Of a stretch of 64,000 bases of DNA, positions 33,924 to 58,802 are shown piece by piece; position 1 is the first letter of the stretch, and each line of letters begins with the position of its first letter. The stretch is taken from assembly GCF_023638055.1 (NCBI RefSeq), contig NZ_JAKRVY010000001.1, forward strand, positions 503,815 to 567,814, read 5' to 3'. The notes below the pieces were generated by a model. It searched no databases and was not told the origin of the DNA. It saw only the letters and a program-made list of their open reading frames with translations. Source of the stretch: Natranaeroarchaeum aerophilus (GTDB lineage: Archaea; Halobacteriota; Halobacteria; Halobacteriales; Natronoarchaeaceae). The position numbers were made by a program, and so were the translations under genes.

Positions 33924-34270
33924 TGTACACCACCAGTCAGGCAGGGATATGTTGAACTCATGGAACAGATTCTGTTTACAGTCTTTACTTCCCACAGATA
34001 GTAATAGTCGGTGATTCGTCGGGACTGAGCAGAACCGAAGGTTCTGCGAGGGTCGGAGCGGCGCTGCCGCTCCGGGATTTGAACCCGATGGCGAGACTCG
34101 CTACGAATCTCCAGCCCACCCCCACGGCGCTGCTCGACCATCCGGGCTTCCCGATCGTCGCGGCAGAACGAACAGATCGACGGGCGGGTTTGCCTGTCCG
34201 CGGGAACGTCCGGCCTGTACCGGAGCTGGTCGGCCTTGCCACAGTCCTTGCACTCGCCGAACCGGCTCAT
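33920..34270 (-). pseudogene. Cassette A copy of zinc-finger gene, 3' end replaced
   Basis: The first 54 or so residues match the cassette B zinc-finger protein (CKDCGKADQLRYRPDVP, CSFCRDDREARMVEQRR). The match ends at GLEI (nt about 34,105), where the duplicated cassette ends. The frame then runs on through two hairpins and a tRNA-like T-arm with no similarity to B, stopping at 33,920. The tail is almost certainly not original coding sequence. Confidence 0.6.
34027..34105. other. Two perfect hairpins and a tRNA T-arm-like sequence at the cassette A edge
   Basis: GCAGAACC-GAA-GGTTCTGC, then GGAGCGGC-GCT-GCCGCTCC, then, on the minus strand, GGGTTCAAATCCCGG preceded by a GCGAG/CTCGC-like stretch. 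This resembles the 3' part of a tRNA and lies exactly where similarity to cassette B starts. It may be an old attachment site. Confidence 0.4.
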
Positions 34271-34467
34271 GCCGACCCCTCCTCTCCGGGAAGTGCCACG
34301 TCCTCCACATCCAGCACTTCGAGTTTCACATTCCGGCGCGTGCGCCGGAGCAACGTCGAGACCGTTCCGGGCTTCCGGTCGGTCTGGCGCGCGAACTCTA
34401 GAACGCCGGTCGTTCCCAGAGCCACCGCCTCGTAGGCCTCGCGTTCGGCGTCGGACAGGATACTTAT
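34267..34467 (-). pseudogene. Cassette A copy of sigma-4-like HTH gene, 5' end lost
   Basis: It matches residues from about 28 to the end of the cassette B HTH protein (SDAEREAYEAV, ARQTDRKPGTVSTLLRRTRR), including the HTH. The N-terminus, promoter and most of the intergenic region are gone, fused by deletion to the start of the divergent winged-helix gene. An ORF reaches 34,539, but only this part is homologous. Confidence 0.65.
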
Positions 34468-34490
34468 TAGTCGGCGATTCCTCACTGCTC

Positions 34491-34715
34491 GTGCGATTTC
34501 TCGCAACCGAGGACATGGCCCCGGCGTCACTGATCGCAAACGAAGTGTTCCGGACGGTCTCGCCGGGCCACGTCAGCGAGCGACTGGCAAAGCTCGAACA
34601 CGCCGGGCTGGTCCACCGCGCCGGAATGGATTCGTTCGATCTGACCTCCGAAGGCGAGCGGTATCTCGACGGCGACCTCGACGTCGAGTACCAGCCACGC
34701 CCGCGGCGGGTGTAG
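34491..34715 (+). pseudogene. Cassette A PhiH1-repressor-like winged helix, N-terminally truncated
   Basis: It matches the C-terminal three quarters of the cassette B protein (EDMAPASLIANEVF, GHVSERLAKLEHAGLVHR, SEGERYLDGDL). The first helix is missing because of the same deletion that cut its neighbour. A GTG at 34,491 could still start a 74-residue protein retaining the recognition helix and wing, so some activity is possible. Confidence 0.55.
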
Positions 34716-34753
34716 GCGTCGCTCGGTGGGCAAGGAGAGAGAAAGAGAGCGCG

Positions 34754-35251
34754 TTATCGATCTTCGACTTCGTACTCGAACAGCGTCGCCGACGTGTCGG
34801 TGTCGGCGCTGTTCCAGATCACGCTGATCTCGGTGCCGGGGTCGAGTTCATCGGGACTGCTCCCGCCGAAGTTGGCGTTATCAGCAGTGGTGAATCCATT
34901 TCCATCCGCGGCGATATAGAGCGAACTCTGTGATCGAAGTCCCTCGTCGGAGTCCGACCAGTCGGCACCCGTCTCGCTGACGGTCTCGCCGTTGACGACG
35001 ACCGAGATCGTGTCGAGGTCCTCGATCGTGTTTCCGGACATGTGGTACACGCGAACGAACTGGTCGTGGTCCCCACCGTACTGTTCGGCGTCGAATCGGA
35101 CGTCGGGTGATTCCTCGACATCGCCCGCGCTCTGGTAGAGGTCGATGGCGAAGATGCCGAGAACTGAGGCGAGGATTACGACTATCGCGACCAGCAAGAT
35201 AGTGCCGATTACACTACTTTGTGCAGTATCGTTTGAAAGAAGTCGCGTCAT
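34754..35251 (-). CDS. Type IV pilin-like protein, cassette A, third gene
   Basis: A 165-residue archaeal type IV pilin. After a short positive leader comes the hydrophobic N-helix (AQSSVIGTILLVAIVVIL), then a beta-rich acidic domain ending SATLFEYEVEDR. The leader would be cut by the prepilin peptidase and the mature protein built into a surface pilus. It is about 90% like the cassette B third pilin, far closer than the other pilin pairs. It reads in the same direction as the next two pilins and is their promoter-distal gene. Confidence 0.8.
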   Translation of the reverse strand: MTRLLSNDTAQSSVIGTILLVAIVVILASVLGIFAIDLYQSAGDVEESPDVRFDAEQYGGDHDQFVRVYHMSGNTIEDLDTISVVVNGETVSETGADWSDSDEGLRSQSSLYIAADGNGFTTADNANFGGSSPDELDPGTEISVIWNSADTDTSATLFEYEVEDR

Positions 35252-35288
35252 GTTTTTTTCTGGGAACTGGAACTGGATGTGATCCAGC

Positions 35289-35867
35289 TTAGTTCACTTC
35301 GTAAGTCTGGAGGACGGATGAGTCGCCCCCGTCATCAGATTCCCAGACAATTCGAATTGTATCTCCGCTACTTAGCTCACTTGCGTCGGTTGGGTTATCG
35401 ATCGTGAAGTCCGCATCGTTAGCGATCGTAACTTCATCGCCGCTACCACCAGCCGGGTCTATATCACCAGATGCGGCAATGGTAGCAGAGTTGCCGGCAG
35501 ACACTTGGCCACCGTCATCGAAGATAGCATCAGCATTGCCGGGTGTGGCCTCGTCTCTGATCTCAAAAGCCTCATCTCCATTTACAGTTACTTCGAGGTT
35601 ATTGTGATCAATCGAAGATCCTGACTGATGTGTGACTTCTACGACAGTTGCCACGCTAGGATCAGCGTTATCATCTATGGTGTCAAATTCTTCTGTACTT
35701 TGACTAAAGTCCCAACTCGCTTGGGGAACTGTCGACTGATCGTCGCCGATACCAATGACAAACGCTCCAATTACGGCGGCCAGAATTACGGTTATTGCCA
35801 CCATTAAGATGACCCCTATGACTGGCGAGACCGCATTTTCTTGAGATGAGAAATTTTTGAAATTCAT
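35289..35867 (-). CDS. Type IV pilin, cassette A, second gene
   Basis: A 192-residue pilin (193 if ATG 35,870 is used). It has the canonical archaeal PilA N-helix SPVIGVILMVAITVILAA followed by GIGDDQSTVPQASWDF and a Gly/Asp-rich beta domain (THQSGSSIDHNNLEVTVNG, IRIVWESDDGGDSSVLQTYEV). The start overlaps the stop of the first pilin. GC is clearly lower than in the flanks. The helix is shared with cassette B while the outer domain has diverged strongly. Confidence 0.85.
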   Translation of the reverse strand: MNFKNFSSQENAVSPVIGVILMVAITVILAAVIGAFVIGIGDDQSTVPQASWDFSQSTEEFDTIDDNADPSVATVVEVTHQSGSSIDHNNLEVTVNGDEAFEIRDEATPGNADAIFDDGGQVSAGNSATIAASGDIDPAGGSGDEVTIANDADFTIDNPTDASELSSGDTIRIVWESDDGGDSSVLQTYEVN

Positions 35868-36304
35868 CATCTGCTTACTTCGTAGGTTGCAAGTACAGAT
35901 GAGTCTCCACCACTATCAGACTCCCATACGACACGGATAGTTGGATCATCGTTGAGGTCATCACCGTCATTGTCGTTGGGAATCTCGAAAGTTGCGCCAG
36001 CACTTACTGGGTCACTACTCCAGCTTGGTGTCGTGAGTTCAACACCGTTGTTAGTCACGTCCAGATTCGACTCGTCAATCGAATCGCCAGCTGAATGAGT
36101 GATTGTCAAATCACCATCTTCTCCCTCGTCATCAAAATCAAAACTGGCCTGCGGAACAGCTTCTTGATCATCACCAATACCAATTACGAACGCACCAATC
36201 ACAGCCGCGAGAATCACCGTGATTGCGACCATGAGTATAACACCGATAACCGGTGACACCGCACGTTCGTCGCCGTCCGTTTCGAATAGTTTTTTGAAAT
36301 CCAT
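35867..36304 (-). CDS. Type IV pilin, cassette A, first gene
   Basis: A 145-residue pilin starting MDFKKLFETDGDERAVSPV. The cleavage area and N-helix (SPVIGVILMVAITVILAA) match the archaeal PilA class. The outer domain is short (THSAGDSIDESNLDVTNNG, RVVWESDSGGDSSVLATYEV). It is the first gene of the three-pilin operon. ATG 36,304 is chosen because the preceding in-frame ATG lies within the leader. It is under the control region with the CTTACAC-N7-GTGTAAG operator. Confidence 0.85.
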   Translation of the reverse strand: MDFKKLFETDGDERAVSPVIGVILMVAITVILAAVIGAFVIGIGDDQEAVPQASFDFDDEGEDGDLTITHSAGDSIDESNLDVTNNGVELTTPSWSSDPVSAGATFEIPNDNDGDDLNDDPTIRVVWESDSGGDSSVLATYEVSR

Positions 36305-36537
36305 AGTTTTCCTTAGTTTTCGTTGTTCGCGCCGACATCCAGCCAAAGGATTAATATCTTACACTTGAATGGTGTAAGATGAGGCAAGGGGTCGAGGGCT
36401 ACAACACCCCTCCTCGCCTGTCCTTTCACGTGCTGTCGGCGTTACAGGTAGTAAGACAGCCACCCCTAATAAAACTTGAGCCAAATATGATGAACTACTA
36501 CATAAATGGCACCTAATTAGCACGTATCTATAATAAA
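36305..36537. promoter_or_regulatory. Cassette A divergent pilin/regulator control region
   Basis: It is about 93% like the same region in cassette B. It contains a minus-strand TATA-like ATTAATAT (about 36,350-36,357) for the pilins, overlapped upstream by a perfect inverted repeat CTTACAC-N7-GTGTAAG (36,358-36,378). A GC-rich hairpin (GAGGCAAGGGGT with ACCCCTCCTCGCC) follows, and an AT-rich stretch leads to the regulator. It is the best candidate switch of the cassette. Confidence 0.65.
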
Positions 36538-37333
36538 ATGAATACTATCGGACTCTCGCCCAAAGCTCTCGCGCACCTACGACGTCCAGAACCGTTCGGA
36601 CGCATGGGAGGCCGTAGAGGACTATCAACGGTATCTCGACGTCGCCGCCCAGAACCCAGACAGTGGCTCCAGCGCGCTCTCGTCGAAACTGGAGATGCCG
36701 CGCGGGCGGATCCGCTCGTGGGAGAACGGAGCAAAGCCCGACCCCGCCCGCGCCGTCGAGGTCGCCGAGCAACGCGACTGGTTCGGGAGTGTCGAGACCG
36801 ACGAGTTCGCGGCGCTGAACCAGCTCGTCGCGTGGATCTTCTCCGGCGGGTCGATCTCCACGGACACCTACGCCCCGCATTTCGCCGTCGACGACGCGAC
36901 CGAGTCACGGGTGACCGACGCGCTGGAGACGCTGGGGCTCGACTGGCGACGCGAGCGCGACGACGAGCCCGATCGGGCGACCGAGATTGTCCCCACGGAG
37001 CACGCCTCAATACTCGGGCGGGCGCTGTCGGTCCTCGGCGCACCGATCGGAGACAAGAACGACCACGCCGAGATCTCCCTGCCGGAGTACCTCGACGACG
37101 CCCCAGACGAGATCAGGGCCGAGTTCGTCGATGTTTACCTCCGGAACCGAGCCCAAAGTCACGACGACAAGGGAACGCTGACACTCCGGGAAGAACGCGC
37201 CGATCGCTACCTCCAGGAACTCGCGGCGCTCGTCGAGGACGTTGCCGGGGAACAGGTGACGGTCAGCGACAAGAACGTGATCCTTTCGGCCGCGGCGGCC
37301 AACGCGCTGTACGGGAATTCTCGGCCGTTTTGA
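36538..37333 (+). pseudogene. Cassette A regulator, frameshifted by a 2-bp loss
   Basis: The counterpart of the intact 264-residue gene at 44,562. Near 36,568-36,574 this copy reads CTCTCGCGCACC where B reads CTCTCGCGCGCACC; one GC unit is lost and the frame breaks after 12 codons. From ATG 36,695 (MPRGRIRSWENG) the rest (212 residues) remains open and well conserved, so a shortened protein could be made. The loss is in a CG dinucleotide run, which is a slippage-prone site. Confidence 0.75.
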
Positions 37334-37423
37334 GGTGTGCCTATCTGGATAATTCAGAACTGTATTTGGGAAACACAATTGATAAGTTAATTCCATCGCC
37401 ATCTGCTGTCAGACACATAACCT

Positions 37424-37957
37424 ATGGCAATTGCTGAATCCCATCGTGAGGTTGCGTCTACCCATACCGGCGAATCTGAACAAATAAAAACAGCATACAG
37501 AGAAACGGATTCAGACACGTTAGTCCTCACCGATCAACGGCTTCTCTTTATCGAGGATCAATCGGAGACCAAGCGAGAGACTCAATCGATTGAATCTATT
37601 TTTCTATCGAGCATTGATAGTGTCGAAGTCACATCACTTGGTCCTGAAGACATTGATACGGACAAATTGGCTAATGCGGCAGTTTTTGGCTTCGGAGCGT
37701 TGGGGTCGCTTGTGATGCTTGTAGGATTTTTTGATTCCTTGTCGCCCATTCAGATTATGGCGGTAATAGGAGTAGGGATTTTATTGGGCACGCTTGCTGT
37801 CGACCAGTATTACGACGCACATCAAACCGACGAGGGACATATTGAGATCGATATTCACACCACGAATAGTCTCTCTAACACCTCTGTCAAACTTCCATTG
37901 GACAAACAGAGTTTCGCTTCTGAGCTGAATAAGACTGTAGCTAACGACCGTCCGTAG
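37424..37957 (+). CDS. Membrane protein with PH-like domain, cassette A cargo
   Basis: A 177-residue protein. The N-terminal 75 residues have the bacterial PH-like pattern (DSDTLVLTDQRLLFIED, SIDSVEVTS). Two transmembrane helices follow (FGFGALGSLVMLVGFF and IMAVIGVGILLGTLAVD), then a short beta-rich tail. The function is unknown. It is lower in GC than its neighbours and occupies the slot that in cassette B is filled by an unrelated lipoprotein gene, on the other strand. Confidence 0.65.
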   Translation: MAIAESHREVASTHTGESEQIKTAYRETDSDTLVLTDQRLLFIEDQSETKRETQSIESIFLSSIDSVEVTSLGPEDIDTDKLANAAVFGFGALGSLVMLVGFFDSLSPIQIMAVIGVGILLGTLAVDQYYDAHQTDEGHIEIDIHTTNSLSNTSVKLPLDKQSFASELNKTVANDRP

Positions 37958-38092
37958 TCGGTTTTAACTCCAGTTGAACACTCATGTACGACGGATAGAA
38001 GAACCGCGTCCGGAAATGAAGGGAAAGTCGGACGGATCCCGCCCCGATCACGACGGGAACCCCCACCAAAAACGACATTATCCCGCGTTGCC

Positions 38093-38115
38093 GTCCGGGT
38101 TCAGGCTACCCGGAC
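38093..38115. repeat. Palindrome with 7-bp spacer before recombinase A
   Basis: GTCCGGGT-TCAGGCT-ACCCGGAC, perfect 8-bp arms, ends at the base before the recombinase ATG (38,116). Further GTCCGG-type motifs lie within 115 bases upstream. The layout fits a tyrosine-recombinase core site and also a hairpin masking the start codon. The counterpart is 45,975-45,998. Confidence 0.55.
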
Positions 38116-38695
38116 ATGAATCTGAAAGCCCACGCCCAACGCGACGACATGAAGGTCTGGCTCAGCCAGTCCGAAGTGAATCAACTGATCGACCAGGCGG
38201 ACGGCACCCAGCAGCGGATCGCCTTCTCGCTCGGTGCTCGCTGCGGGCTCCGAAGCCACGAGGTCCTCGACGTCGCGCCGGAGCACGTCGTCGACACTGA
38301 CGCCGGAACGATGCTCCGGGTCTGGCACGGGAAAGGCGACCAGTACCGCGAAACGCCGGTCCCGCGAGATCTCGCCACTACGATCCGCACGATCGACGAC
38401 GTGCGCGACCAGAGCGCCAGCTCGTCGCTACTCGACATCACGTCGACGCGCTCACTTCGGCGGTGGATCCAGAACGCCGCCGATCGCCTCCAGGACGAAA
38501 CCGGCGACGAGGGCTGGAACCATCTCGGATTTCACGATCTCCGGCGGACCTGGGCGACCGCGCTCGCCAGCGCGGACGTCGACGCTCTGCGACTGGGGCC
38601 GCTGGAACGATCTGGAGACGTTTCTGGAGCACTACCGTGGGACGTACTCGCCGGAAGCCCAACAGCGAGAACGAGGAAAGGTCGACTGGCTGTAA
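38116..38695 (+). pseudogene. Cassette A short tyrosine recombinase, frameshifted
   Basis: It matches the intact recombinase at 45,999 over its whole length, but an 8-bp deletion near 38,586 (CTGCTGGT lost, between CTG repeats) shifts the frame before the catalytic Tyr. The first part keeps the catalytic Arg (GLRSHEV), Lys (HGKG) and HxxR (FHDLRRTW). The shifted remainder still reads WNDLETFLE on another frame to the original stop at 38,695. It should be inactive. Confidence 0.8.
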
Positions 38696-38699
38696 CAGG

Positions 38700-38948
38700 C
38701 TACTGATACACGGTATCCCGTGTATCGATCTTCAGCACTCGGAGTTCATCGGCTTGCTTGTCCCAGTCGATAATTGCGCGCCGTTTCCCGATTCGCAGGG
38801 AGTAGTCGTCACGGCCTGACAGTGGTTTCAGGTGCCGGTCGGGGTTGTTCCCCGCTTCTTCAAGCTTCGACCGAATCCGATCTTCGATATCGTTCGGAAG
38901 CGATTCCAGTTTCTTCTGAACGTCGGGATGTAACAGAACCGTCGCCAT
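38700..38948 (-). CDS. RelE/ParE-family toxin
   Basis: An 82-residue RelE/ParE-like protein: LHPDVQKKLESLPNDIEDRI, LKPLSGRDDYSLRIGKRRAIIDWD, ending LRVLKIDTRDTVYQ. The Arg-rich strand pattern fits ribosome-dependent mRNA interferases. It lies 6 bases downstream of an adjacent wHTH-like gene, an antitoxin-toxin layout. A 9-bp-arm palindrome (38,705-38,726) lies within its last codons and may end transcription. Confidence 0.8.
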   Translation of the reverse strand: MATVLLHPDVQKKLESLPNDIEDRIRSKLEEAGNNPDRHLKPLSGRDDYSLRIGKRRAIIDWDKQADELRVLKIDTRDTVYQ

Positions 38949-39570: not shown

Positions 39571-40584
39571 CTATTTCGGAAGGTCTTGCTGACGGACTGC
39601 CATCTTCTCGCGTTCCGTCCGCGCGTCGTAGTGCTGATACAGAACGTCGAGCGAGACGTCCATCCGTTCGCTCACCGTCTCCGGTGCAGTTTCAGCGTTC
39701 AGGTGGTTCGTGATCGCTCCCCGGCGGACCGCGTGCGGTGATCGGGCGGACGGACACCTCGACGGAACCGCGTCACGTCCGCGAGCATCGCAGGTCTCCG
39801 GCGTCTCGTCGTGGGGGCAACTCGCGTACGTACACGGGTGCAGCGCTCGAATCACCCACTTGTATATCGATCCGCCGGAAGCTCGTGTTCCCATCTGCGT
39901 CGAGAACAGCGGGCGGCGACCGTGCTCGTCGGTAACTTCTGGTCGGTCGGGATTCGAGACGTAATCGTCGAGGATCTGGAACCAGCGCGGCCCCAGATAC
40001 ACCCAGCGTGTTCCGTCGTCGCCGTTCTTCAGTCCCGTTCCGGTCTCCGGACGGTGCTCGACGTAGACCGCGTTATCGTCACCGTCGAGATCGTTGACAT
40101 CGATGGCGCGCGCTGCACCGCGACGCATCCCCGTCCGCCACAGCAGCGCAAGCAAGGCGTGATCTCGGCTGGCGTAGTGATGTCGGTCGTGATACTCCAG
40201 TGCACGCTTTGCCCGATCGGGCGAGAGAAACACATCTCGGGACTCGGCCCCGTCCGGCAGCTCCGGAGCGTGTAGCTTCTCGGCCAGTCCCTTCTCGACG
40301 GCTTCGATATCAGCCCACCATCGCAGGGCGACCCGAACGCTACTCAGCTGCTTCTGGAGCGTAATCGCCGCGACGTCGGAACGACGCCAGGCGACGAAGT
40401 CGGAGAGATCACGACCGGACAGTTCGTTCAGGTTGTGGATCTCCCGTTCATCGCACCACTCCAGAAACGCGTTCAAGCGCGTTCGTGTATTCTGTAACGA
40501 ACTCTCCCGGATCGATGGCTCTCGGTGTCGGATGAATCGCTCGACGCCTTCTTCGGGAGAGAGGTGTTCCAGGTCCTCGCTCAC
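39571..40584 (-). CDS. Tyrosine integrase (int1)
   Basis: A 337-residue phage-type integrase. It has an N-terminal SAM-like core-binding domain (SIRESSLQNTRTRLNAFLEW) and a catalytic domain with Arg in WRTGMRRGAARAI. A Cys-rich insert (CTYASCPHDETPETC) comes before SPHAVRRGAITNHL (HxxR), and the Tyr lies in LYQHYDARTEREK. GTG 40,584 overlaps the upstream stop as GTGA. It is the last gene of a coupled six-gene operon and is a clear paralogue of int2 at 58,803. Confidence 0.9.
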   Translation of the reverse strand: MSEDLEHLSPEEGVERFIRHREPSIRESSLQNTRTRLNAFLEWCDEREIHNLNELSGRDLSDFVAWRRSDVAAITLQKQLSSVRVALRWWADIEAVEKGLAEKLHAPELPDGAESRDVFLSPDRAKRALEYHDRHHYASRDHALLALLWRTGMRRGAARAIDVNDLDGDDNAVYVEHRPETGTGLKNGDDGTRWVYLGPRWFQILDDYVSNPDRPEVTDEHGRRPLFSTQMGTRASGGSIYKWVIRALHPCTYASCPHDETPETCDARGRDAVPSRCPSARSPHAVRRGAITNHLNAETAPETVSERMDVSLDVLYQHYDARTEREKMAVRQQDLPK

Positions 40585-40811
40585 GCGGATCCCTCCCCGA
40601 CACTCGCCGCCGGAAAGTCGTCCTCGACGATCTGGTCTTTGAGCTGGTCGACCAGCCACTCGGCGTCAGCACGGCGGGCGGGACTCACCGAGTCGTCGAC
40701 CTGCGCGACCGCGCTCGCCGGATCCTCGGCCGCGCCACTGGCGAGCTGGTAGGACGCCGCGCGGGCGATCGTCTGCACCCGCTTCCAGTGACGGTCGTCG
40801 AGCGGGTTCAC
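40581..40811 (-). CDS. Small helical protein upstream of int1
   Basis: A 76-residue acidic helical protein (NPLDDRHWKRVQTIARAASY, DAEWLVDQLKDQI), unrecognised. The GTG start overlaps the stop of the upstream gene and its stop overlaps the start of int1, so all are translated together. A similarly placed small gene precedes int2 (59,816-59,980), which hints at a role as excisionase or integrase partner. Confidence 0.6.
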   Translation of the reverse strand: MNPLDDRHWKRVQTIARAASYQLASGAAEDPASAVAQVDDSVSPARRADAEWLVDQLKDQIVEDDFPAASVGEGSA

Positions 40812-42484: not shown

Positions 42485-42759
42485 TGACTGGCCGGCACAA
42501 CGCTGCCTGGATGAAACGCGAGGACGAACGCATCCTCGAATATCTCGGCTCCGAGGACATGGCGAGCGCACGACTGATCTCCCGCGAGGCGTTCCGGCAG
42601 GTCTCGGCGGGCCACGTCGCCGAACGACTGGCAAAGCTCGAATATGCCGGGCTGGTCCACCGCGTCGGGACCACCTCCTTCGAGCTGACCTGCGAGGGCG
42701 AGCGGTATCTCGCTGGCGATCTCGACGCCAAGCATCAACCCCGCCCGCGCCGAGTGTAG
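42484..42759 (+). CDS. PhiH1-repressor-like winged-helix protein 2, cassette B
   Basis: A 91-residue winged helix (MKREDERILEYLGSEDMASA, AGHVAERLAKLEYAGLVHR, CEGERYLAGDLD) with a basic tail PRPRRV. It is coupled by ATGA to the first winged-helix gene. It converges on the pilin genes with 41 bases between stops. The truncated cassette A copy is at 34,491. Confidence 0.75.
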   Translation: MTGRHNAAWMKREDERILEYLGSEDMASARLISREAFRQVSAGHVAERLAKLEYAGLVHRVGTTSFELTCEGERYLAGDLDAKHQPRPRRV

Positions 42760-42800
42760 CTGTCGCTACGTGGGCTGGGAGAGAGTAGAAAGAGAGCGCG

Positions 42801-43298
42801 TTATCGATCCTCGACTTCGTACTCGAACAGCGTCGCCGACGTGTCGGCGTCGGCACTGCTCCAGATCACGCTGATCTCGGTGCCGGGGTCGAGTTCATCG
42901 GGACTGCTCCCGCCGAAGTCGGCGTTATCAGCAGTGGTGAATCCGCTTCCGTCCGCAGCGATGTACAGTGAACTCTGTGACCGAAGCCCCTCGTTGGAGT
43001 TCGACCAGTCGGCACCCGTCTCGCTGACGGTCTCGCCGTCGACGACGACCGAGATCGTGTCGAGGTCCCCGATCGTGTTTCCGGTCATGTGGTACATGCG
43101 GACGAACTGATCGTGATCCCCACCGTACTGTTCGGCGTCGAATCGGACATCGGGTGATTCCTCGACGTCGCCTGCGCTTTGGTACAGGTCTATTGCGAAG
43201 ATACCGATTACTGACGCGAGTATGACGACTATCGCGACGAGAAGGATCGTACCAATGACTGATGATTGGGCACTGTCGTCTGAAAGAATGGAACGCAT
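42801..43298 (-). CDS. Type IV pilin-like protein, cassette B, third gene
   Basis: A 165-residue pilin with N-helix AQSSVIGTILLVAIVVIL and a long beta-rich domain, nearly identical to the cassette A third pilin (DVEESPDVRFDAEQYGGDHD is unchanged). The lack of divergence, against the strong change in pilins one and two, suggests a structural or assembly role (base or minor pilin) rather than an exposed variable face. That reading is inference. Confidence 0.8.
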   Translation of the reverse strand: MRSILSDDSAQSSVIGTILLVAIVVILASVIGIFAIDLYQSAGDVEESPDVRFDAEQYGGDHDQFVRMYHMTGNTIGDLDTISVVVDGETVSETGADWSNSNEGLRSQSSLYIAADGSGFTTADNADFGGSSPDELDPGTEISVIWSSADADTSATLFEYEVEDR

Positions 43299-43323
43299 TG
43301 GTTGCTACTGAGGATCCGTCGGA

Positions 43324-43848
43324 TTAGCCGACCTCGTAGTCAGACAGGACGGACGAATCGCCTCCATCGTCGGATGTCCAGACGATCCGGATGGTGTCAC
43401 CAGATGTTAATAGCTCGCTATCTCCATCGAAGGTTTCACTATCTGATTTTGTATCGTCATATCCAACAACTCTGACACTCTGACCAGCACTAACAGAGCC
43501 TGTTCCATCCCAAAGACCAACTGTATCGGCCGCCGGACCGCTACCGTCACTATCCCAAGCAGTCTCTCCTTCGGCGGTGATTTCTAGATTACTTTCGTCA
43601 ATAGTTGTTCCAGTACTGTGCGTGATTGTTACAGTTTTTGCATCCGACTCTGTACTTACAAATTCGATCTCTTCAGTTGTTTGGTCAAAATCCCAACTAG
43701 CCTGTGGAACTGTCGACTGATCATCGCCGATTCCGATAACAAATGCACCAATAACAGCTGCTAGAATCACCGTTATGGCGACCATTAATATGACCCCTAT
43801 GACAGGCGATACAGCCGAATCGTCTACGAATATATTTTTGATATTCAT
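43324..43848 (-). CDS. Type IV pilin, cassette B, second gene
   Basis: A 174-residue PilA-class pilin: DSAVSPVIGVILMVAITV, then GIGDDQSTVPQASWDF, then a diverged outer domain (THSTGTTIDESNLEITAEG, IRIVWTSDDGGDSSVLSDYEV). Its start is 3 bases from the stop of the first pilin. The DNA is AT-richer than its flanks. It differs from its cassette A partner mainly in the outer domain. Confidence 0.85.
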   Translation of the reverse strand: MNIKNIFVDDSAVSPVIGVILMVAITVILAAVIGAFVIGIGDDQSTVPQASWDFDQTTEEIEFVSTESDAKTVTITHSTGTTIDESNLEITAEGETAWDSDGSGPAADTVGLWDGTGSVSAGQSVRVVGYDDTKSDSETFDGDSELLTSGDTIRIVWTSDDGGDSSVLSDYEVG

Positions 43849-43851
43849 AGT

Positions 43852-44328
43852 TTACTGGACTTCAAAGTCGAATAGTACAGACGAGTCACCGCCGTCATCA
43901 GAGGTCCACACTACTCGAATTGTTTCTCCTTCATTTAGGTCGTTATCGCCGCTATCGTCGTCATCTGTAATCGTATAGGTAGATCCTGCGCTTACTGGAT
44001 CGCCAAACGGACTCAGACTGGAAGTACTAGTCACCCAGTCGTCGGCGTCATCGCCATCGATTGTAACCGCTAAGTTGCTTTCATCGATGGTGGCACCGGT
44101 CTGATGAGTAATCTCAACTTCAACATCTTCGCCGTTATCTACTTGATTATCTTGATTACTGTCCCAACTCGCTTGTGGGACGGTTGACTGATCGTCACCA
44201 ATCCCAATCACGAACGCACCGATCACAGCCGCCAAAATTACTGTTATGGCGACCATAAGAATTACTCCGATAACCGGAGAAACAGCCCGTTCGTCGCCGT
44301 CTGTTTCGAATAGTTTTTTGAAATCCAT
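43852..44328 (-). CDS. Type IV pilin, cassette B, first gene
   Basis: A 158-residue PilA-class pilin beginning MDFKKLFETDGDERAVSPV exactly as in cassette A. The outer domain (THQTGATIDESNLAVTIDG, VVWTSDDGGDSSVLFDFEVQ) differs from A in sequence and in length. It is the first gene of the operon behind the conserved control region. The start is placed at ATG 44,328. Confidence 0.85.
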   Translation of the reverse strand: MDFKKLFETDGDERAVSPVIGVILMVAITVILAAVIGAFVIGIGDDQSTVPQASWDSNQDNQVDNGEDVEVEITHQTGATIDESNLAVTIDGDDADDWVTSTSSLSPFGDPVSAGSTYTITDDDDSGDNDLNEGETIRVVWTSDDGGDSSVLFDFEVQ

Positions 44329-44561
44329 AGTTTTCCTTAGTTTTCGTTGGTTGCGCCGACATGCGGCCAAAGGATTAATATCTTACACTTGCGTGGTGTA
44401 AGATGAGGCAAGGGGTCGAGGGCTACAACACCCCTCCTCGCCTGTCCTTTCGCGTGCTGTCGGCGTTACACGTAGGAAGACATCCACCCCTAATAAAACT
44501 TGAGCCAAATATGATGAACTACTACATAAATGGACCCTAATTAGCATGTGTCTATAATAAA
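44329..44561. promoter_or_regulatory. Cassette B divergent pilin/regulator control region
   Basis: It carries the same elements as cassette A: TATA-like ATTAATAT for the pilins, the inverted repeat CTTACAC-N7-GTGTAAG at 44,382-44,402 (arms unchanged, centre changed from A), the GC-rich hairpin, and an AT-rich lead-in to the regulator. Conservation of the arms but not the centre points to protein binding. Confidence 0.65.
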
Positions 44562-45356
44562 ATGAATACTACCGGACTATCGCCCAAAGCTCTCGCGCGC
44601 ACCTACGACGTACAGAACCGTTCGGACGCATGGGAGGCCGTAGAGGACTACCAGCGGTATCTCGACGTCGCCGCCCAGAACCCAGACAGTGGCTCCAGCG
44701 CACTCTCGTCGAAACTGGAGATGCCGCGCGGGCGCATCCGCTCGTGGGAGAACGGAGCAAAGCCCGATCCCGCCCGCGCCGTCGAGGTCGCCGAGCACCG
44801 CGACTGGTTCGGCGGCCCCGAAACTGACGAGTTCGCGGCGCTGAACCAGCTCGTCGCGTGGATCTTCTCCGGGGGGTCGATCTCCTCGGAGACCTTCGTC
44901 CCGCATTTCGCCGTCGACGACGCGACCGAGTCACGGGTGACCGACGCGCTGGAGACGCTGGGGCTCGACTGGCGACGCGAGCGCGCCGACGAGTCGGACC
45001 GGGCCACCGAGATCGTGCCCACGGACCACGCCAGCGTACTCGGGCGGGCGCTGGTCGTCCTCGGCGCGCCTCAGGGCGAAAAGAGCGACCAATCGGCGTT
45101 CTCGCTGCCGGAGTATCTCGACAACGCGCCGGACGAGATCCGCGCCGAGTTTGTCGACGTCTACATTCGGAACCGCTACACGGACCACGACCGGCTGGTG
45201 ATGGGCTTTCGAGAGCAACGATCCAAAGCGTACCTGCAGGAGCTGGCGAGCCTGATCGAAGACGTCGCCGGCGAGTCGGTTACCGTCAGCGAGAAGAACA
45301 TCTACCTTTCAGCTGAGGCGGCCGATGCTCTATACGGGAACTCCCGGCCATTTTGA
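44562..45356 (+). CDS. Predicted DNA-binding regulator of the pilin cassette
   Basis: A 264-residue protein. Residues 45-80 look like an HTH (SSALSSKLEMPRGRIRSWEN, with AVEVAEHRDWF after). The C-terminal part has a pattern recalling half of a LAGLIDADG fold (LGRALVVLGAPQGEK, LPEYLDNAPDEIRAEFVDVY) but without the catalytic acids. It is divergent from the pilins across the operator region. The intact form of the broken gene at 36,538. The role as pilin regulator is inferred from position. Confidence 0.6.
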   Translation: MNTTGLSPKALARTYDVQNRSDAWEAVEDYQRYLDVAAQNPDSGSSALSSKLEMPRGRIRSWENGAKPDPARAVEVAEHRDWFGGPETDEFAALNQLVAWIFSGGSISSETFVPHFAVDDATESRVTDALETLGLDWRRERADESDRATEIVPTDHASVLGRALVVLGAPQGEKSDQSAFSLPEYLDNAPDEIRAEFVDVYIRNRYTDHDRLVMGFREQRSKAYLQELASLIEDVAGESVTVSEKNIYLSAEAADALYGNSRPF

Positions 45357-45382
45357 TCAGGCTTATTGACTAAATAACGAGA

Positions 45383-45832
45383 TTACTCGTTCGGCGCAGT
45401 ACTGGTGCTAATTGTGGCAGAATCGCTCTCGTCCGCAGAGACCCATTCAAGCGTTATTGTCTCCCCTGACCATTCTTCCCCGACTGCACTATGAGAGCCG
45501 AGGTCAAACTGACTTCCAGCTGAGACGGTCGGATTCGACTCAGTGACCCAATCTTCAGATTCTCCATTAATGATGACTTCCAGAGAGTCTGGCTCTTCAA
45601 CCGAATCTCCACTTGAATGAGTTAGTGCCCCTTCGCCACTATTCTCGAAATCAAAGTCTATAGCCATTTGTGGGACAGTTGATTCGGTTGTCGAATCATT
45701 TTCTTCTTCATTATTCCCAGAGTTTTCATCTTCATTTTCATCTCCTTCATCAGCACCGAGGCAACCGCTGAGAACTGATACTGCAACACTTGAAGCGAGT
45801 ATTTTTCTTCGACTTGTGACGCTGTTAGCCAT
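45383..45832 (-). CDS. Lipoprotein with pilin-like outer domain, cassette B cargo
   Basis: A 149-residue lipoprotein. It has a signal with basic start (TSRRKILASS), lipobox LSGC at about residue 23, and an acidic Asn/Glu linker. The outer domain follows the pilins of the same cassette step by step: VPQMAIDFDF, THSSGDSVEEPDSLEVIING, VSAGSQFDL, ETITLEWVSADESDSATIST. It lacks the pilin N-helix, so it should be lipid-anchored rather than polymerised. It occupies the cargo slot between regulator and recombinase. Confidence 0.7.
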   Translation of the reverse strand: MANSVTSRRKILASSVAVSVLSGCLGADEGDENEDENSGNNEEENDSTTESTVPQMAIDFDFENSGEGALTHSSGDSVEEPDSLEVIINGESEDWVTESNPTVSAGSQFDLGSHSAVGEEWSGETITLEWVSADESDSATISTSTAPNE

Positions 45833-45974
45833 GGCCAGTGATTTTTACCCCTGTCCAATAAATGACTAGTTCTTCTGTTGAGAACTCGTCCGGAAAGAGA
45901 GGGAAAGTCGGACGGATCCCGCCCCGATCACGCCGGGAAACCCCACCAAAAACGACATTACCCCCCGCGTTGCC

Positions 45975-45998
45975 GTCCGGGTTACAGGCTACCCGGAC
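45975..45998. repeat. Palindrome with 8-bp spacer before recombinase B
   Basis: GTCCGGGT-TACAGGCT-ACCCGGAC: the same arms as at 38,093-38,115 and a spacer longer by one base, again ending right at the recombinase ATG. The orientation is the same, so recombination between the two would excise 7,882 bp. Confidence 0.55.
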
Positions 45999-46586
45999 AT
46001 GAATCTGAAAGCCCACTCCCAACGCGACGACATGAAGGTCTGGCTCAGCCAGTCCGAAGTGAACCAACTGATCGATCAGGCGGACGGCACCCAGCAGCGG
46101 ATCGCCTTCTCGCTCGGCGCTCGGTGCGGGCTTCGAAGCCACGAGGTCCTCGACGTCGCGCCGGAGCACGTCGTCGACACTGACGCCGGAACGATGCTCC
46201 GTGTCTGGCATGGAAAAGGCGACCAGTATCGGGAGACACCGGTGCCGCGGGATCTCGCGACGACCATCCGCACGATCGACGACGTGCGCGACGCCAGCGC
46301 CAACTCGTCGCTGCTCGACATCACGTCGACGCGCTCGCTTCGGCGGTGGATCCAGAACGCCGCCGATCGCCTCCAGGACGAAACCGATGACGAGGGGTGG
46401 AACCATCTCGGCTTTCACGATCTCCGGCGTACCTGGGCGACCGCGCTCGCCAGCGCCGACGTCGACGCCCTGCTGGTCTGCGACTGGGGCGGGTGGAACG
46501 ATCTGGAGACGTTTCTCGAACACTACCGCGGGACGTACTCGCCGGAAGCCCAACAGCGAGAAAGAGGGAAAGTCGGCTGGTTATGA
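45999..46586 (+). CDS. Short tyrosine recombinase, cassette B
   Basis: A 195-residue protein that is only the catalytic domain of a tyrosine recombinase: Arg in GARCGLRSHEV, Lys in WHGKGDQ, HxxR in FHDLRRTW, Trp in CDWGGWND and Tyr in LEHYRGTYS. The usual N-terminal core-binding domain is absent, and a palindrome abuts the start, so no earlier start is likely. It probably acts with a partner or as a directly binding short form. It is intact, unlike its cassette A copy. Confidence 0.85.
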   Translation: MNLKAHSQRDDMKVWLSQSEVNQLIDQADGTQQRIAFSLGARCGLRSHEVLDVAPEHVVDTDAGTMLRVWHGKGDQYRETPVPRDLATTIRTIDDVRDASANSSLLDITSTRSLRRWIQNAADRLQDETDDEGWNHLGFHDLRRTWATALASADVDALLVCDWGGWNDLETFLEHYRGTYSPEAQQRERGKVGWL

Positions 46587-46629: not shown

Positions 46630-46854
46630 ATGACTGAAGAAAGTGGATTCTATTGCAGTTGGTGTGACCAATTCGAAGACCCAGAAAACCTGTCTTTAGA
46701 CGAAAGGCAAGACCAACTCAAAGAGCACTATCTGGAGTCCCATGAAGAGAAGCTGAAGGAGATGCGGGACAAGAACTTTGACCAGAGCCTTGCCTATTTT
46801 GCGGGAATGGAAGCCTCGAACAAACCGACTGCCGACGTGGAGCTGGATCTTTAG
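46630..46854 (+). CDS. Small C2H2-like zinc-finger protein
   Basis: A 74-residue protein with FYCSWCDQFEDPE and LKEHYLESHEEKLKE, giving Cys-Cys and His-His pairs of a C2H2-like finger, then a short helical tail. It is unrecognised as a family. It follows the recombinase by 43 bases and its stop overlaps the end of the convergent AbrB-like gene by 4 bases. Confidence 0.6.
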   Translation: MTEESGFYCSWCDQFEDPENLSLDERQDQLKEHYLESHEEKLKEMRDKNFDQSLAYFAGMEASNKPTADVELDL

Positions 46855-47030
46855 AGATCCTCGACCACTTCGACGGTCCACTTCCCAGGTCCTTCGCGTC
46901 GGATATGCGCGTGTTGCTCGCCGTCGATCTCGCCGTTCTCGTCGATCAGCCCGTCAAGCCGGAGATCGTCTTTCGGGATCGTCACACCGGCACTATTCGA
47001 GTCGAGCTGTCGGAGTTTGTTGACTGCCAT
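46851..47030 (-). CDS. AbrB/SpoVT-like small DNA-binding protein
   Basis: A 59-residue swapped-hairpin-type protein: VNKLRQLDSNSAGVTIPKDDL matches the first half of the AbrB motif, and HIRREGPGKWTVEVVEDL is the closing strand. Such proteins bind DNA as dimers, often as repressors or antitoxins. It is divergent from the virion gene block, so it may control that promoter (TATA-like TAATAAA near 47,054). Confidence 0.7.
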   Translation of the reverse strand: MAVNKLRQLDSNSAGVTIPKDDLRLDGLIDENGEIDGEQHAHIRREGPGKWTVEVVEDL

Positions 47031-47143
47031 AACTGAGCGGGCAACGTACGGTCTAATAAAAGTGGTGTAACCAGAGGGTAAACGGTGGTCAAACCAAGGA
47101 AATCCTAAGTTTTTCCGCGGCACGCGTGGCCGGTCTCGTCGCA

Positions 47144-47569
47144 ATGTCCTATGCAAACTGGATCCCTGACGGGGTCCGACGAGAAGACGGCATCGACCTG
47201 ATCGACGCGGTACTCGCTCCGCTGTTCGTGCTGGCGAGTTTTAGCACGGCCGCGGTCGGCTCGCTCGAGCTGTACGATCCGATCAACTGGGGCTTCGAAG
47301 ACATCCTGTACGCCGCGGGTGGCTCCGAGATCACCCTCGGCTTCGTCGTGACCATGATCACGATCGTCACCGCCTGGGTGACCAACGGCCAGACGAGCGT
47401 CGACGACTTCACCGACGTCGAAACGATCACGCTCCTGCTGGCGATCGTGCTGAACGTCAGTATGGCGCTGGTCCCACTGGTCTCGAACACGGTCGAAGCG
47501 CAGTGGTTCCTCGGCTGGTTCCTGGTCATGCTCAACGGCGCCGCGTTCTACCTGATCGCCTACAAGTGA
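47144..47569 (+). CDS. Pleolipovirus VP3-like internal membrane protein
   Basis: A 141-residue protein with four hydrophobic segments ([18 protein letters not shown] and [17 protein letters not shown] among them) and a short polar start [15 protein letters not shown]. Size, topology and position directly before the spike gene match the VP3 membrane protein of pleolipoviruses. ATG 47,144 is preferred over GTG 47,126. It is the first gene of a five-gene virion operon. Confidence 0.7.
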
Positions 47570-50470: not shown

Positions 50471-51022
50471 ATGCGCCGCTTCTTTTTTGCGCTACTGACG
50501 GTATCGGTAGCTCTGGCGGTGGGCATGGGTGTTATGGGCGTCACCGCACAGGAGACGCCGACCAACGAGACAGACGAGTTCGAGGACGACCTCGGCGACG
50601 AGTACGAGCAACTGATCGACGCCGAGACGCGAGTCGTCGAGTGGTCCTACGATAGCGGTGTCTTCACGATCACCGTCGACGCCGACGAGGACACGGAGCT
50701 GGGGATCACCGAAGCGGGCGGCTTCGAGGAAGGCTCGGGATCGTACAACTTCGAGACCGTCGAGATCCCCGAGGGCGAGTCGACGGTCACCTTCTCGACG
50801 CGGGACGGGAACGGCGCGGCAGTCACGATCTCGACCCAGGAGAGTCTCGCGCAGGGGACCGGTGCGTACCTCTCGACCGGGACCGACGTCGAGGAGAACC
50901 CGTTCCGGCACTTCGGCGGCACGTCGGGACTGTTCTCCGGCGTCGGCATGACCGTCCTGCTAGCGGGGCTCGCTGCTGGCTACGTCGTGCGCTCCGAGAA
51001 CCGGGGTGTCATTGAGAAATGA
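50471..51022 (+). CDS. Virion-block membrane protein with signal peptide (ORF6-like)
   Basis: A 183-residue protein with a Sec-type signal (FFFALLTVSVALAVGMGVMG), a beta-rich acidic body and a C-terminal transmembrane helix (GVGMTVLLAGLAAGYVV). It sits where pleolipoviruses carry ORF6 between the spike and ORF7 genes. It overlaps the next gene by ATGA and begins 2 bases after the spike stop. The exact role in the virion is unknown. Confidence 0.65.
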   Translation: MRRFFFALLTVSVALAVGMGVMGVTAQETPTNETDEFEDDLGDEYEQLIDAETRVVEWSYDSGVFTITVDADEDTELGITEAGGFEEGSGSYNFETVEIPEGESTVTFSTRDGNGAAVTISTQESLAQGTGAYLSTGTDVEENPFRHFGGTSGLFSGVGMTVLLAGLAAGYVVRSENRGVIEK

Positions 51023-51822
51023 GCGGGGACACTTCAGGCACCTTCGGCGGGTGGTCCGACCGACTGACGTACATCGCTGCCGAGGGCCAGCTGGTCGTGC
51101 TCGGGATCGCCTTCAGCATCGGCGTCTTGCTGCTGTGGTTCCGGCCGTCAGTGCCAGGCGTTCCGCCGATCGCGTTCGGCTGGTTCGCCGCGCTGTTGAT
51201 TCTGGGGCCGCCGCTGCTGGCGATGTTCGTCACCGGCGCGCGCAAGCTCCGGAACCGCCACATGGTCGAGGTACACCACATCAACGGCGTCACCGACAAG
51301 CGCCGGAAGCTCGACGTCGCGCCGGAACTGTGGGACGCAAAGAAGGTCGAAGGCCCGAGCCCGTATCCCGTGAACGACGGCGACGCCTACGAGGTTCGGG
51401 AGTTCGAGTACGACGAGGAACTCGACCAGCTCCGCGTGCGCGGCTGTTACTTCTCGCAACTCGCCGATTCGAAGCTGGTGACGGTGAAGGCGATGCTCGA
51501 AGACATTCACGGGGATCTGATAGAGGAATTCATCGCCAGCAACCGGCTCCGTGGGCGGATCTCGAAAATGGGCGTCGAGATCCAGAGCGACGTGGTCAAC
51601 AAGGAGGCTGAAGCCGACGAGCGCGGGCTGATGAACCCGCGGACCACGGTGAAAGAGCGCTTCGAGTCGGCGCGCGACGACGTCGAGGACGCTTCGATCG
51701 ACGAGATCCGCGACATGAACGACTACGTCGACGAGTACACCGACGAGCATGGGATCGACGCGGTCGGCGGACCGCCACAGACCCGCCAGCAGGCGGCCAC
51801 GGACGGTGGTACGAATGAGTGA
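51019..51822 (+). CDS. Virion-block membrane protein (ORF7-like)
   Basis: A 267-residue protein with two N-terminal transmembrane helices (VVLGIAFSIGVLLLWF and IAFGWFAALLILGPPLLAMF) and a soluble C-terminal part with mixed charged helices and a Thr/Gln-rich end. Position and topology fit ORF7 of pleolipoviruses. It overlaps both neighbours (ATGA at 51,019 and an 8-base overlap with the ATPase gene). Confidence 0.65.
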   Translation: MSGDTSGTFGGWSDRLTYIAAEGQLVVLGIAFSIGVLLLWFRPSVPGVPPIAFGWFAALLILGPPLLAMFVTGARKLRNRHMVEVHHINGVTDKRRKLDVAPELWDAKKVEGPSPYPVNDGDAYEVREFEYDEELDQLRVRGCYFSQLADSKLVTVKAMLEDIHGDLIEEFIASNRLRGRISKMGVEIQSDVVNKEAEADERGLMNPRTTVKERFESARDDVEDASIDEIRDMNDYVDEYTDEHGIDAVGGPPQTRQQAATDGGTNE

Positions 51823-52999
51823 CGAACAGGACAATTTCACGGTCGGCGGCTTTCGGGAGTACCAGGACGGCAATCTCGCGCGGGATCCCGACGAGGTGCT
51901 GGATCACTCGGGCTTTGTCCGCGACGAGAAGGTCGATCGGCAGATGACCATGCGGGCGGTCCACCACGATCCCGACCGCTGGGACGGCAAGGCCGCCGCG
52001 ACGTACATGGACGTCGGGAAGAACCGCGACATCCTCAAAGCCGAGGGGGCGACGACCGCCCGGAACGCGCTCGACAACGGGGATACCCTCACGCTCAAGC
52101 ACTATATCGGCGACCCAAGTCAGGAGGCGGACCTCTCGGGCATCAAGGCGATCTCCCGGCTCCGGCAGATCGTCGCCGGTCCCGCCCCGGTGATCGTTGT
52201 GCTCGGGGAGATGGGTGCCGGGAAAACGAACTTCGCTTGCTTGCTCGCCCAGCTCCGCGAGCGCTGGGTCGACGGGAATCTCATGGTCGGTTCGAATATT
52301 CGGACGCTCCCGCGCAACGACGACTGGGTGCGCGACGACGGGAGCGTCGAGGACGGCTGGATACCGAACTATCCACTCCTGAGTGAGTGGGTCCAGCAGG
52401 ACGGCGATCCCGTCGAGAACGCCCAACAGCCAAAGCTGTTCATCGGTGATGAGTTCTCGACGAACGCCTCAGGCTCGGGCAAGGACGGTCAGAAGGTCCG
52501 GAAGCTGATGGGGCCGCTCGTCTTCAAGATCCGCAAGTACGGCGGCGCGCTGATCTACATCGGCCACGACGAGTCGTCGATCCACCCGCTACTCTGGCGG
52601 GTCGGCACGATCATCAAAAAGCCGGATCGGAACAACCGCGGGAAGGCACTCATCGCTGAGCGGATCTCCGGCGGGAAGCTCCAGGACGTGGATCCCCAGC
52701 CGCTCACTGGGATCCCGCCCGCAGACTTCGAGCCGCATACGAACGACGAGGCTCCGTGGTCGTGGGACGCTCCGGTCGGCGGTGGCGACGACGGCGAGAG
52801 CTTCGAGGAGGCGGACGTGAAGCGTGTCGCCATGTGGACGGTGAAAACGGCGGTGCGCGACCAGGGGATGACGCCGAATCAGGCGGCCGAGTACGTCCCG
52901 TACTCGTCGACGACGGTGTACAACTGGTTGGAAGATTACGACTCGGGCGACCAGCAAAAGCGCGAATGGGTTGAAAGCGTGGAGTCGGTGATAGCATGA
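51815..52999 (+). CDS. Pleolipovirus VP8-like P-loop ATPase
   Basis: A 394-residue ATPase. Walker A is VLGEMGAGKTNFACLL at about residue 129, Walker B is LFIGDEFST, and a possible sensor region is GGALIYIGHDES. The C-terminal 60 residues form an HTH (MTPNQAAEYVPYSSTTVYNWL). In pleolipoviruses this gene closes the virion block and is thought to help assembly or genome packaging. ATG 51,815 is chosen. Confidence 0.8.
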   Translation: MSDEQDNFTVGGFREYQDGNLARDPDEVLDHSGFVRDEKVDRQMTMRAVHHDPDRWDGKAAATYMDVGKNRDILKAEGATTARNALDNGDTLTLKHYIGDPSQEADLSGIKAISRLRQIVAGPAPVIVVLGEMGAGKTNFACLLAQLRERWVDGNLMVGSNIRTLPRNDDWVRDDGSVEDGWIPNYPLLSEWVQQDGDPVENAQQPKLFIGDEFSTNASGSGKDGQKVRKLMGPLVFKIRKYGGALIYIGHDESSIHPLLWRVGTIIKKPDRNNRGKALIAERISGGKLQDVDPQPLTGIPPADFEPHTNDEAPWSWDAPVGGGDDGESFEEADVKRVAMWTVKTAVRDQGMTPNQAAEYVPYSSTTVYNWLEDYDSGDQQKREWVESVESVIA

Positions 53000-58314: not shown

Positions 58315-58553
58315 GCCGACCACCCCGCGGCCTGTTCATTACTCCGATGCGCGCTCGAATCCTCGGGATCGGTGGCCGCAACCTCGCGCCCGGCGGCACT
58401 CCCGCGGGTCAGTCGGCGGCTGGTATCGCACTCAGGACAGCGGTGGGCGACGTGATCTTCGTCACCGAACACCCGCTGGAAGTCCTCCGAGACGTGGGCT
58501 CCACAGTTCCGGCAGGTGGCGGACTCGTCGCTCTCGGTGACGAGTTTCAACAC
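58311..58553 (-). CDS. Zinc-finger protein (DUF7563-like), provirus
   Basis: An 80-residue protein with CRNCGAHVSEDFQRVFG and CPECDTSRR zinc pairs and a polar tail ending GWSA. GTG 58,553 (or GTG 58,562) is the start, again within the repeated junction motif. Small proteins of this kind are common in haloarchaeal viruses and proviruses; the role is unknown. Confidence 0.65.
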   Translation of the reverse strand: MLKLVTESDESATCRNCGAHVSEDFQRVFGDEDHVAHRCPECDTSRRLTRGSAAGREVAATDPEDSSAHRSNEQAAGWSA

Positions 58554-58802
58554 GCCGACCACCCCCGGAAACCTTCTACTAAATCACCCGACAGCGCGGA
58601 CCCGAAACCCGCGGCCGACGTAATTCGATCAAAGTCAGCGTTTTTTCGCTCCAGAACGTGTGCGCACTTTGGCGTACTGACGCCTGAGCGTGCCGCTAAC
58701 TGGATAGTTCGATACGTGTATGAAGTCGGATGGACTCGTCGGGGAGGAACCTCTGAGTATTTGATATGCAATTCTCCAATCGTTCCGCTATAACTTGGAA
58801 AC
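58554..58802. other. Gap between int2 and the provirus small genes
   Basis: 249 bases. A minus-strand frame runs through it and ends GWSAC at the repeated junction, but its start lies inside int2 and its composition is mixed. It may be debris of a lost gene. A promoter for the replication operon could lie here. Confidence 0.4.

Follow-up and report, generated by a model that had tools for sequence, protein, structure and literature searches.

A lipoprotein with a haloarchaeal type IV pilin head in a predicted SNJ2-like provirus of Natranaeroarchaeum aerophilus

Haloarchaeal type IV pilins (PF07790; PDB entry 8fj5) combine a class III signal and a polymerising N-terminal helix with an outer beta-sandwich domain, here called the head. 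In the temperate Natrinema virus SNJ2 (Betapleolipovirus SNJ2) the regulator gene gp09 adjoins a single pilin gene and is followed by gp11, VP12 and the structural operon; the pilin, gp10 (L114, NC_074646, 5587-6051), is annotated as hypothetical, and it was its N-terminus that identified it as a pilin. A sandwich domain at the membrane is also known from the archaellum stators FlaF and FlaG, which are held there by a transmembrane helix. Prophage-borne lipoproteins such as T5 Llp and TP-J34 Ltp block superinfection; like the protein described here they are small lipoproteins from a phage or temperate element, and we claim no sequence relation between them. In the mostly open-access literature that was covered (the SNJ2 description, Mol. 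Microbiol. 2015, lies outside this scope), we found no report of lipoproteins with pilin heads or of pleolipovirus pilins; the accessible parts of PMC7911831, PMC10599561, PMC6393860, PMC7921747 and PMC7911016 describe none, and that of PMC10599561 contains neither pili nor pilin.

Here we analyse a lipoprotein gene, P0001, in a window of 64,000 nucleotides from the haloarchaeon Natranaeroarchaeum aerophilus (contig NZ_JAKRVY010000001.1, positions 503,815 to 567,814); all coordinates without another source refer to this window, and the features are collected in Table 1. P0001 shares with the haloarchaeal pilins the outer beta-sandwich head, both in sequence and in predicted fold, but it has neither the class III signal nor the N-terminal helix and bears instead a Tat signal, a lipobox and an acidic linker. 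Direct reading of its N-terminus gave the twin arginine RRKIL and the lipobox LSGC with Cys24, in agreement with the lipobox named in the preliminary description, and the features of a Tat lipoprotein (twin arginine, hydrophobic stretch and lipobox cysteine) can be followed in RRKILASSVAVSVLSGC. The TAT models of Pfam and NCBIfam do not match P0001, so that the Tat assignment is motif-based; the protein is thus predicted from its sequence to be a Tat substrate that is processed at Cys24 and carries a lipid anchor. The linker comprises 28 residues (12 acidic, 0 basic) and the head 98 (22 acidic, 0 basic). Within the head we read, in order, VPQMAIDFDF, THSSGDSV, IINGE, VSAGS and WVSADESDSA: the order of motifs given before was correct, but the one listed as VING actually reads IINGE. 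The near-invariant residues of pilin heads are retained, and signal, lipobox, linker and head lie in one intact frame.

The relationship of this head to pilins is supported by several searches. Pilin_N (PF07790) matches residues 49-92 of P0001 with E 2.3e-4 through the helix-less part of the profile (33-77 of 78), with a score of 22.4 bits that lies below the gathering score of 25.2, so that P0001 falls short of the pilin cut-off. The three neighbouring pilins match the same profile from the helix onward (E 2.5e-13 to 1.6e-23) and are also recognised by TIGR02537, the N-terminal model of archaellins and pilins, whereas P0001 is not and lacks the class III signal with its polymerising helix; the absence of this helix had been noted at the outset and held up. 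In single BLASTP comparisons P0001 matched the two larger cassette pilins with E 4e-7 and 8e-4 and the minor pilin with 2e-4. A profile built from 20 pilin heads, all of them from other genomes and with no row from a lipoprotein or from the window, gave P0001 73.2 bits, compared to a maximum of 17.0 bits for 500 shuffles of its sequence. For the surveys of the own genome, of lipoprotein contexts and of SNJ2-like loci we used a second profile, A2 (28 rows, including P0001, three other lipoproteins and four window pilins); the non-circular scores are those of the pilin-only profile. At E<=0.01, A2 found eight places in the own genome, namely seven pilins and P0001, and none of the other Tat lipoproteins of this genome, which a search with P0001 had reached through their signal peptides. 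Chance or the composition of halophile proteins as the source of the resemblance is ruled out by the shuffles together with this own-genome search.

Among 392 genomes of the order, at least 27 contained a match to P0001 at E<=1e-5, at most ten first-look candidates per genome being scored in such large searches; the matches examined were mostly pilins, aligned over residues ~50-148 of P0001. A search of plasmids returned one record, annotated as a pilin. P0001 falls into no PHROGs family, and of orthologues we found no match among phages and none that could be confirmed in viral contigs or genome contigs. Its identity to the window pilins (31-34%) does not exceed that to foreign pilins (up to 40%), so that no matching of P0001 to its neighbours is visible.

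Modelling points in the same direction. For residues 43-149, AlphaFold2 gave a model with a mean pLDDT of 88.2, whose best Foldseek match in the PDB is the Haloferax volcanii type IV pilus, 8fj5, with E 2.2e-6 (next match 8e-3); structural alignment with VIA gave 8fj5_A a Z of 12.4 (rmsd 2.5, 102 residues; next Z 7.9). The cassette pilin at 35870-36301 (copy A), modelled separately with a mean pLDDT of 84.6, likewise has 8fj5 as its best PDB match. Both models lean towards the pilin fold because their alignments contain pilins (A3, 59 rows, i.e. P0001 and 58 of 93 non-redundant head stretches; A4, 29 rows). The archaellum stator FlaG is another match of the cassette-pilin model (5tuh_B, Z 7.3, 84 residues, rmsd 2.8), but this middling Z lies within the range of a common arrangement, and archaellum stators are not listed among the matches of the P0001 model. 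A fold search of BFVD was negative at E<=0.001. Taken together, profile scores and predicted folds confirm that P0001 contains a haloarchaeal type IV pilin head in full. The preliminary description had assigned this domain, on a predicted lipid anchor, from motifs and had proposed a comparison of predicted structures as its check; the two folds agree, and the assignment stands.

The earlier reading of the surroundings as a pilin cassette was right about the pilin neighbours, but missed the genes around them. Using tblastn with SNJ2 proteins we found homologues of gp01, gp04, gp09, gp10, gp11, VP13, gp14, gp15, gp17, gp18, gp19 and gp25 between 39.6 and 58.6 kb. The element around P0001 thus has what defines an SNJ2-like betapleolipovirus, a structural operon with NTPase and an SNJ2-type integrase, and on this gene content the pilin cassette falls within a provirus of the SNJ2-like betapleolipovirus type, located at ~39.5-58.6 kb, the left arm of which is duplicated. 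Its NTPase (51749-52999) and the SNJ2 one share 78% identity; a search of viral contigs with the NTPase yielded nothing of use. Most provirus genes fall into PHROGs families without a function name. Compared to SNJ2, the order of a regulator beside pilin genes, then gp11, VP12 and the structural operon is the same, but the orientation of the blocks differs, SNJ2 has one pilin and no annotated head lipoprotein, and here the left arm is doubled with P0001 in its slot.

Table 1. Features of the predicted provirus and of its duplicated left arm, in window coordinates
Feature	Position	Strand	Basis
Copy A of left arm (HTH, three pilins, regulator, slot, recombinase-like gene)	34107..38706	.	86-92% identical DNA
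Copy A slot gene, weak bacterial PH match	37424..37957	+	bPH_1 E 1.3e-5, below cut-off; slot alignment
SNJ2-type integrase, left end of provirus	39571..40659	-	gp01-like, 41%
Minor pilin, copy B	42801..43298	-	Pilin_N E 2.5e-13
Type IV pilin, copy B, first	43324..43848	-	Pilin_N E 1.4e-22
Type IV pilin, copy B, second	43852..44328	-	Pilin_N E 1.6e-23; TIGR02537
Cassette regulator, SNJ2 gp09 homologue	44562..45356	+	40% identity over 95%
P0001, predicted lipoprotein gene	45383..45832	-	ORF of 149 aa at these coordinates
P0001 parts: Tat signal and lipobox; acidic linker; pilin head	residues 1-24; 24-51; ~52-149		read from sequence
Possible TATA-type element	45833..45875	-	TTTATT ~30 nt upstream of the P0001 ATG; by eye
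Tyrosine-recombinase-like gene closing the slot	45999..46586	+	Phage_integrase E 2.1e-16
SNJ2 gp11 homologue	46851..47156	-	54% over 59 aa
VP12-like small membrane protein	47126..47569	+	phrog_3232 E 1.7e-34; relatives in L116, L117
VP13-like spike, 962 aa	47580..50468	+	phrog_2231; PQQ_2 E 1.8e-8
SNJ2 gp14-, gp15- and gp17 (NTPase)-like genes	50471..52999	+	NTPase 78-81% identical to SNJ2
SNJ2 gp25-like gene near right end of provirus	58326..58562	-	52% over 79 aa

Some further features of the region may be mentioned. The spike is much longer than the 541 aa of SNJ2 VP13 and bears a BamB/WD40-like propeller region. A second SNJ2-type (gp01-like) integrase at 58809-59810, immediately past the provirus, suggests a neighbouring element. 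At a predicted tRNA-Ser (57049) no att repeat was found beyond a 14-base match, and the prediction itself looks doubtful. Outside the provirus, at 33031-33642, inspection by eye showed 12-base units repeated within the coding sequence of a membrane protein whose long, charged tail looks like a coiled coil.

The left arm occurs twice in tandem (34107-38706 and 41505-46586), with long matched blocks of 86-92% identical DNA. The two copies carry different genes in a slot that spans from the stop codon of the regulator to ~60 bp or more ahead of the recombinase-like gene: in copy A it holds the gene with the weak bPH match, in copy B it holds P0001. In a genome of the same genus (G006), where a protein 97% identical to the product of the recombinase-like gene is encoded, the slot is occupied by a gene on the opposite strand that by eye resembles the copy A kind. 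The flanks of the slot align and are conserved among copies A, B and G006, whereas its contents are entirely different. GC content is 0.46-0.48 (GC3 0.38-0.45) in P0001, in the two larger copy B pilins and in the slot gene of copy A; it is 0.62-0.66 in the regulator, the recombinase and all but one of the five structural-operon genes examined (these four 0.62-0.65), and 0.58 in the spike. Self-BLAST of the window DNA gave no similarity between the P0001 ORF and the neighbouring pilin genes, and a recent duplication of P0001 from these genes at the DNA level was rejected for lack of any DNA match.

Pilin genes are not peculiar to this provirus. Starting from homologues of the regulator, we found an ORF with a pilin N-terminus in 28 of 30 fetched stretches (one of the 30 being this window). 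Among 20 SNJ2-like loci found by alignment of the NTPase, a pilin ORF lies beside a regulator match in 10 and pilins occur without a regulator match in 3, while in the remaining 7, several of which end at contig ends, no pilin is present in the stretch; the pair occurs in SNJ2 itself (L114) and in L132, L134-L136, L138, L142-L144, L146 and L147. As far as can be told from these sequences, in SNJ2 and many of its relatives a common regulator has type IV pilin genes next to it. The A2 profile detected in the 20 other SNJ2-like loci neither a head-bearing lipoprotein nor a head without a pilin N-terminus, and the annotated genes of SNJ2 include no counterpart of P0001, which is therefore not a conserved viral part. 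In these surveys a fast lipobox pattern also matched probable out-of-frame ORFs, which were excluded from the counts. In the own genome, Pilin_N matches at E 0.001 in 10 places, of which the two provirus arms account for 6; the genome also has seven matches of the PF00437 secretion-ATPase type, so that pili can probably be made.

Heads like that of P0001 were also found on two other architectures of haloarchaeal lipoproteins, which we term type 2 and type 3. They share with P0001 a lipobox and a pilin head, but are larger or otherwise ordered, and none lies in a pleolipovirus context in the stretches examined. Type 2 (L038, L050-L063, L071; 16 examined) consists of a lipobox signal, a head and mostly a Thr/Asn-rich tail; 13 of these proteins come from genus g50 and one each from g69, g94 and g81. 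With the pilin-only profile 7 of the 16, those tested, scored 16-33 bits (shuffle maxima 2-10), the weakest being L071 with 15.9 bits and a shuffle maximum of 10.1. Type 3 (L020, L021, L128, L150-L159; 15 proteins in 10 genomes examined, with at most six first-look candidates per genome scored) has a signal, a domain of ~310 aa and then the head; twin arginine and lipobox are present in all 15, and the head reaches 45-79 bits with the pilin-only profile. The same search also matched proteins aligned only ahead of the head (e.g. query 4-311), so that the head looks optional in this type. In L128 (5207-9641, G269) and L153 (G260), head-bearing lipoproteins of type 3 stand in tandem, at least three to an array.

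Ten contexts of 17 kb around candidate hits (L119-L128) contained head-bearing lipoproteins in seven cases; L126 and L127 were dropped because no head was detectable, and L125 because it is a long pilin-like protein instead. Such long proteins, with a head followed by extracellular-looking sequence, were seen in L083 (own genome, C1:608717-608995) and L125 (6735-8555), with frames of 572 and 606 aa. A pattern search for ORFs with a pilin N-terminus was negative in all ten contexts (~8 kb around), and we found no SNJ2-like or pleolipovirus neighbours in the stretches examined around the other head-bearing lipoproteins. It had been put forward that similar lipoproteins without a link to pilins would speak against the pilin connection of P0001; seven head-lipoprotein contexts without a pilin ORF go part of this way. 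The presence of P0001-type heads on the two other architectures indicates that the lipid-anchored head recurs, and that the head is a portable module, seemingly a reusable surface-binding part.

A tree of 87 heads on 106 columns (short or duplicate rows dropped from 93), a small data set, distributes the 11 lipoprotein rows over three places, with 3 label changes, at least 2 of which are forced by starred branches; some branches are long and the bootstrap had not settled. P0001 adjoins a pilin of family f5, apart from the cassette pilins. None of the AU tests rejected its constraint: a single lipoprotein clade had p 0.206, P0001 with L020/L018 p 0.26, and P0001 with the cassette pilins p 0.152. 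The tree has the lipoproteins with heads in separate places, yet the AU test does not speak against a common origin of them all; a repeated capture of the head by lipoproteins is likely on these sequence comparisons. The suggestion that P0001 was derived from a pilin, taken to mean a neighbouring one, does not find support as it was stated: the tree places P0001 elsewhere, although the AU value given above for this grouping does not reject it.

As to function, the reading that we prefer, tentatively and as a real possibility, is that P0001 is a genuine accessory gene of the SNJ2-like provirus which displays a non-polymerising head at the envelope and takes part in surface remodelling; any single binding partner of the head is less probable than this. 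Presumably exported by Tat, processed at Cys24 and anchored by its lipid, P0001 could not enter a filament without the helix and would thus act by binding. The linker would keep one head near the membrane, where membrane-stored pilins would likewise expose theirs, so that the head would be offered to the partners of pilin heads (pilus subunits, the S-layer, other cells and pilus-using viruses) and would compete for them. Its display would change the surface of the lysogen, and together with the provirus-borne pilins this would amount to a remodelling of the surface by the provirus. For P0001, a role in changing the surface seems most natural, given the several pilins and the regulator that come with the provirus. 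We count in favour of surface display the synteny, the pilin-regulator pairs, the share of the genome's Pilin_N places that falls in the two arms, the homology and fold of the head, the low GC content, the variable slot and the recurrence of lipid-anchored heads, and against it the failure to find an orthologue, the absence from the 20 loci, the other head-lipoproteins without pilin or SNJ2-like neighbours and the missing match to the neighbouring pilins. That pilins can matter in archaeal virus infection is suggested by Sulfolobus islandicus, which pilin deletions render resistant to SSV9 according to the accessible part of PMC7217056.

The recurrence of the head might also be read as that of a general adhesion module. 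The Ig/FN3-like sandwich would then be a haloarchaeal surface-binding domain (for S-layer, glycan or cell contact) used in pilins and lipoproteins, and P0001 a small adhesin gained by chance and linked to neither pilus nor virus. We regard this as doubtful, although two other lipoprotein architectures bear the head with no pilin genes nearby, one of them has head-bearing and head-less relatives (judged by query range), as expected for a plug-in domain, and the cassette-pilin model shows its middling resemblance to FlaG; P0001, however, adjoins pilins and a pilin-linked regulator inside a provirus, and as haloarchaeal host pilin genes are often scattered, the distance between loci proves little about independence from pilins. 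A closer tie to the pili themselves, with the head capping, anchoring or regulating pili built from the cassette pilins, much as a stator would, through lateral contacts between heads at the membrane, would suit the homology and complete core of the head, its cassette context and the probable ability of the cell to make pili. It appears rather improbable, since the similarity of P0001 to the cassette pilins does not exceed that to other pilins and the slot differs in copy A and G006 while the pilins persist.

This variability of the slot, its AT-rich gene and the fact that P0001 is the sole known case in a provirus setting would also fit a passenger, i.e. a chance chimera without selected function in which recombination joined a head to a lipoprotein signal. 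The intact ORF with all parts in frame, the near-invariant head residues that it has kept and the occurrence of the same design in at least two other forms elsewhere make this improbable, too. Very improbable, finally, is a virion component, with the lipid anchor setting the head as a second spike on the membrane of a pleomorphic virion: the element belongs to a membrane-vesicle type of virus, as far as the accessible literature goes, and P0001 lies 1.3 kb from the VP12-like gene, but it is located outside the structural operon and on the opposite strand and has no counterpart among the annotated SNJ2 genes or in the 20 related loci. Returning to surface display, an extension of it that we consider unlikely, and put forward as speculation, is that betapleolipovirus proviruses in general rewrite the pilus surface of their hosts with regulated pilins of their own, here also with a lipid-anchored head that would serve as a receptor decoy or a dominant-negative partner and exclude pilus-dependent rivals, and that haloarchaea use the lipid-anchored head in at least three architectures.

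Two findings go beyond what had been described before: P0001 lies in a provirus that carries pilins of its own, and the head is used more widely among lipoproteins. In this provirus and in other haloarchaeal lipoproteins, a pilin head is thus detached from the polymerising helix and placed on a predicted lipid anchor, so that what the head binds by itself becomes directly testable with soluble or tethered heads. Should it be true that provirus pilins and heads alter the adsorption of viruses, the archaea would have a clear example of lysogenic surface conversion.
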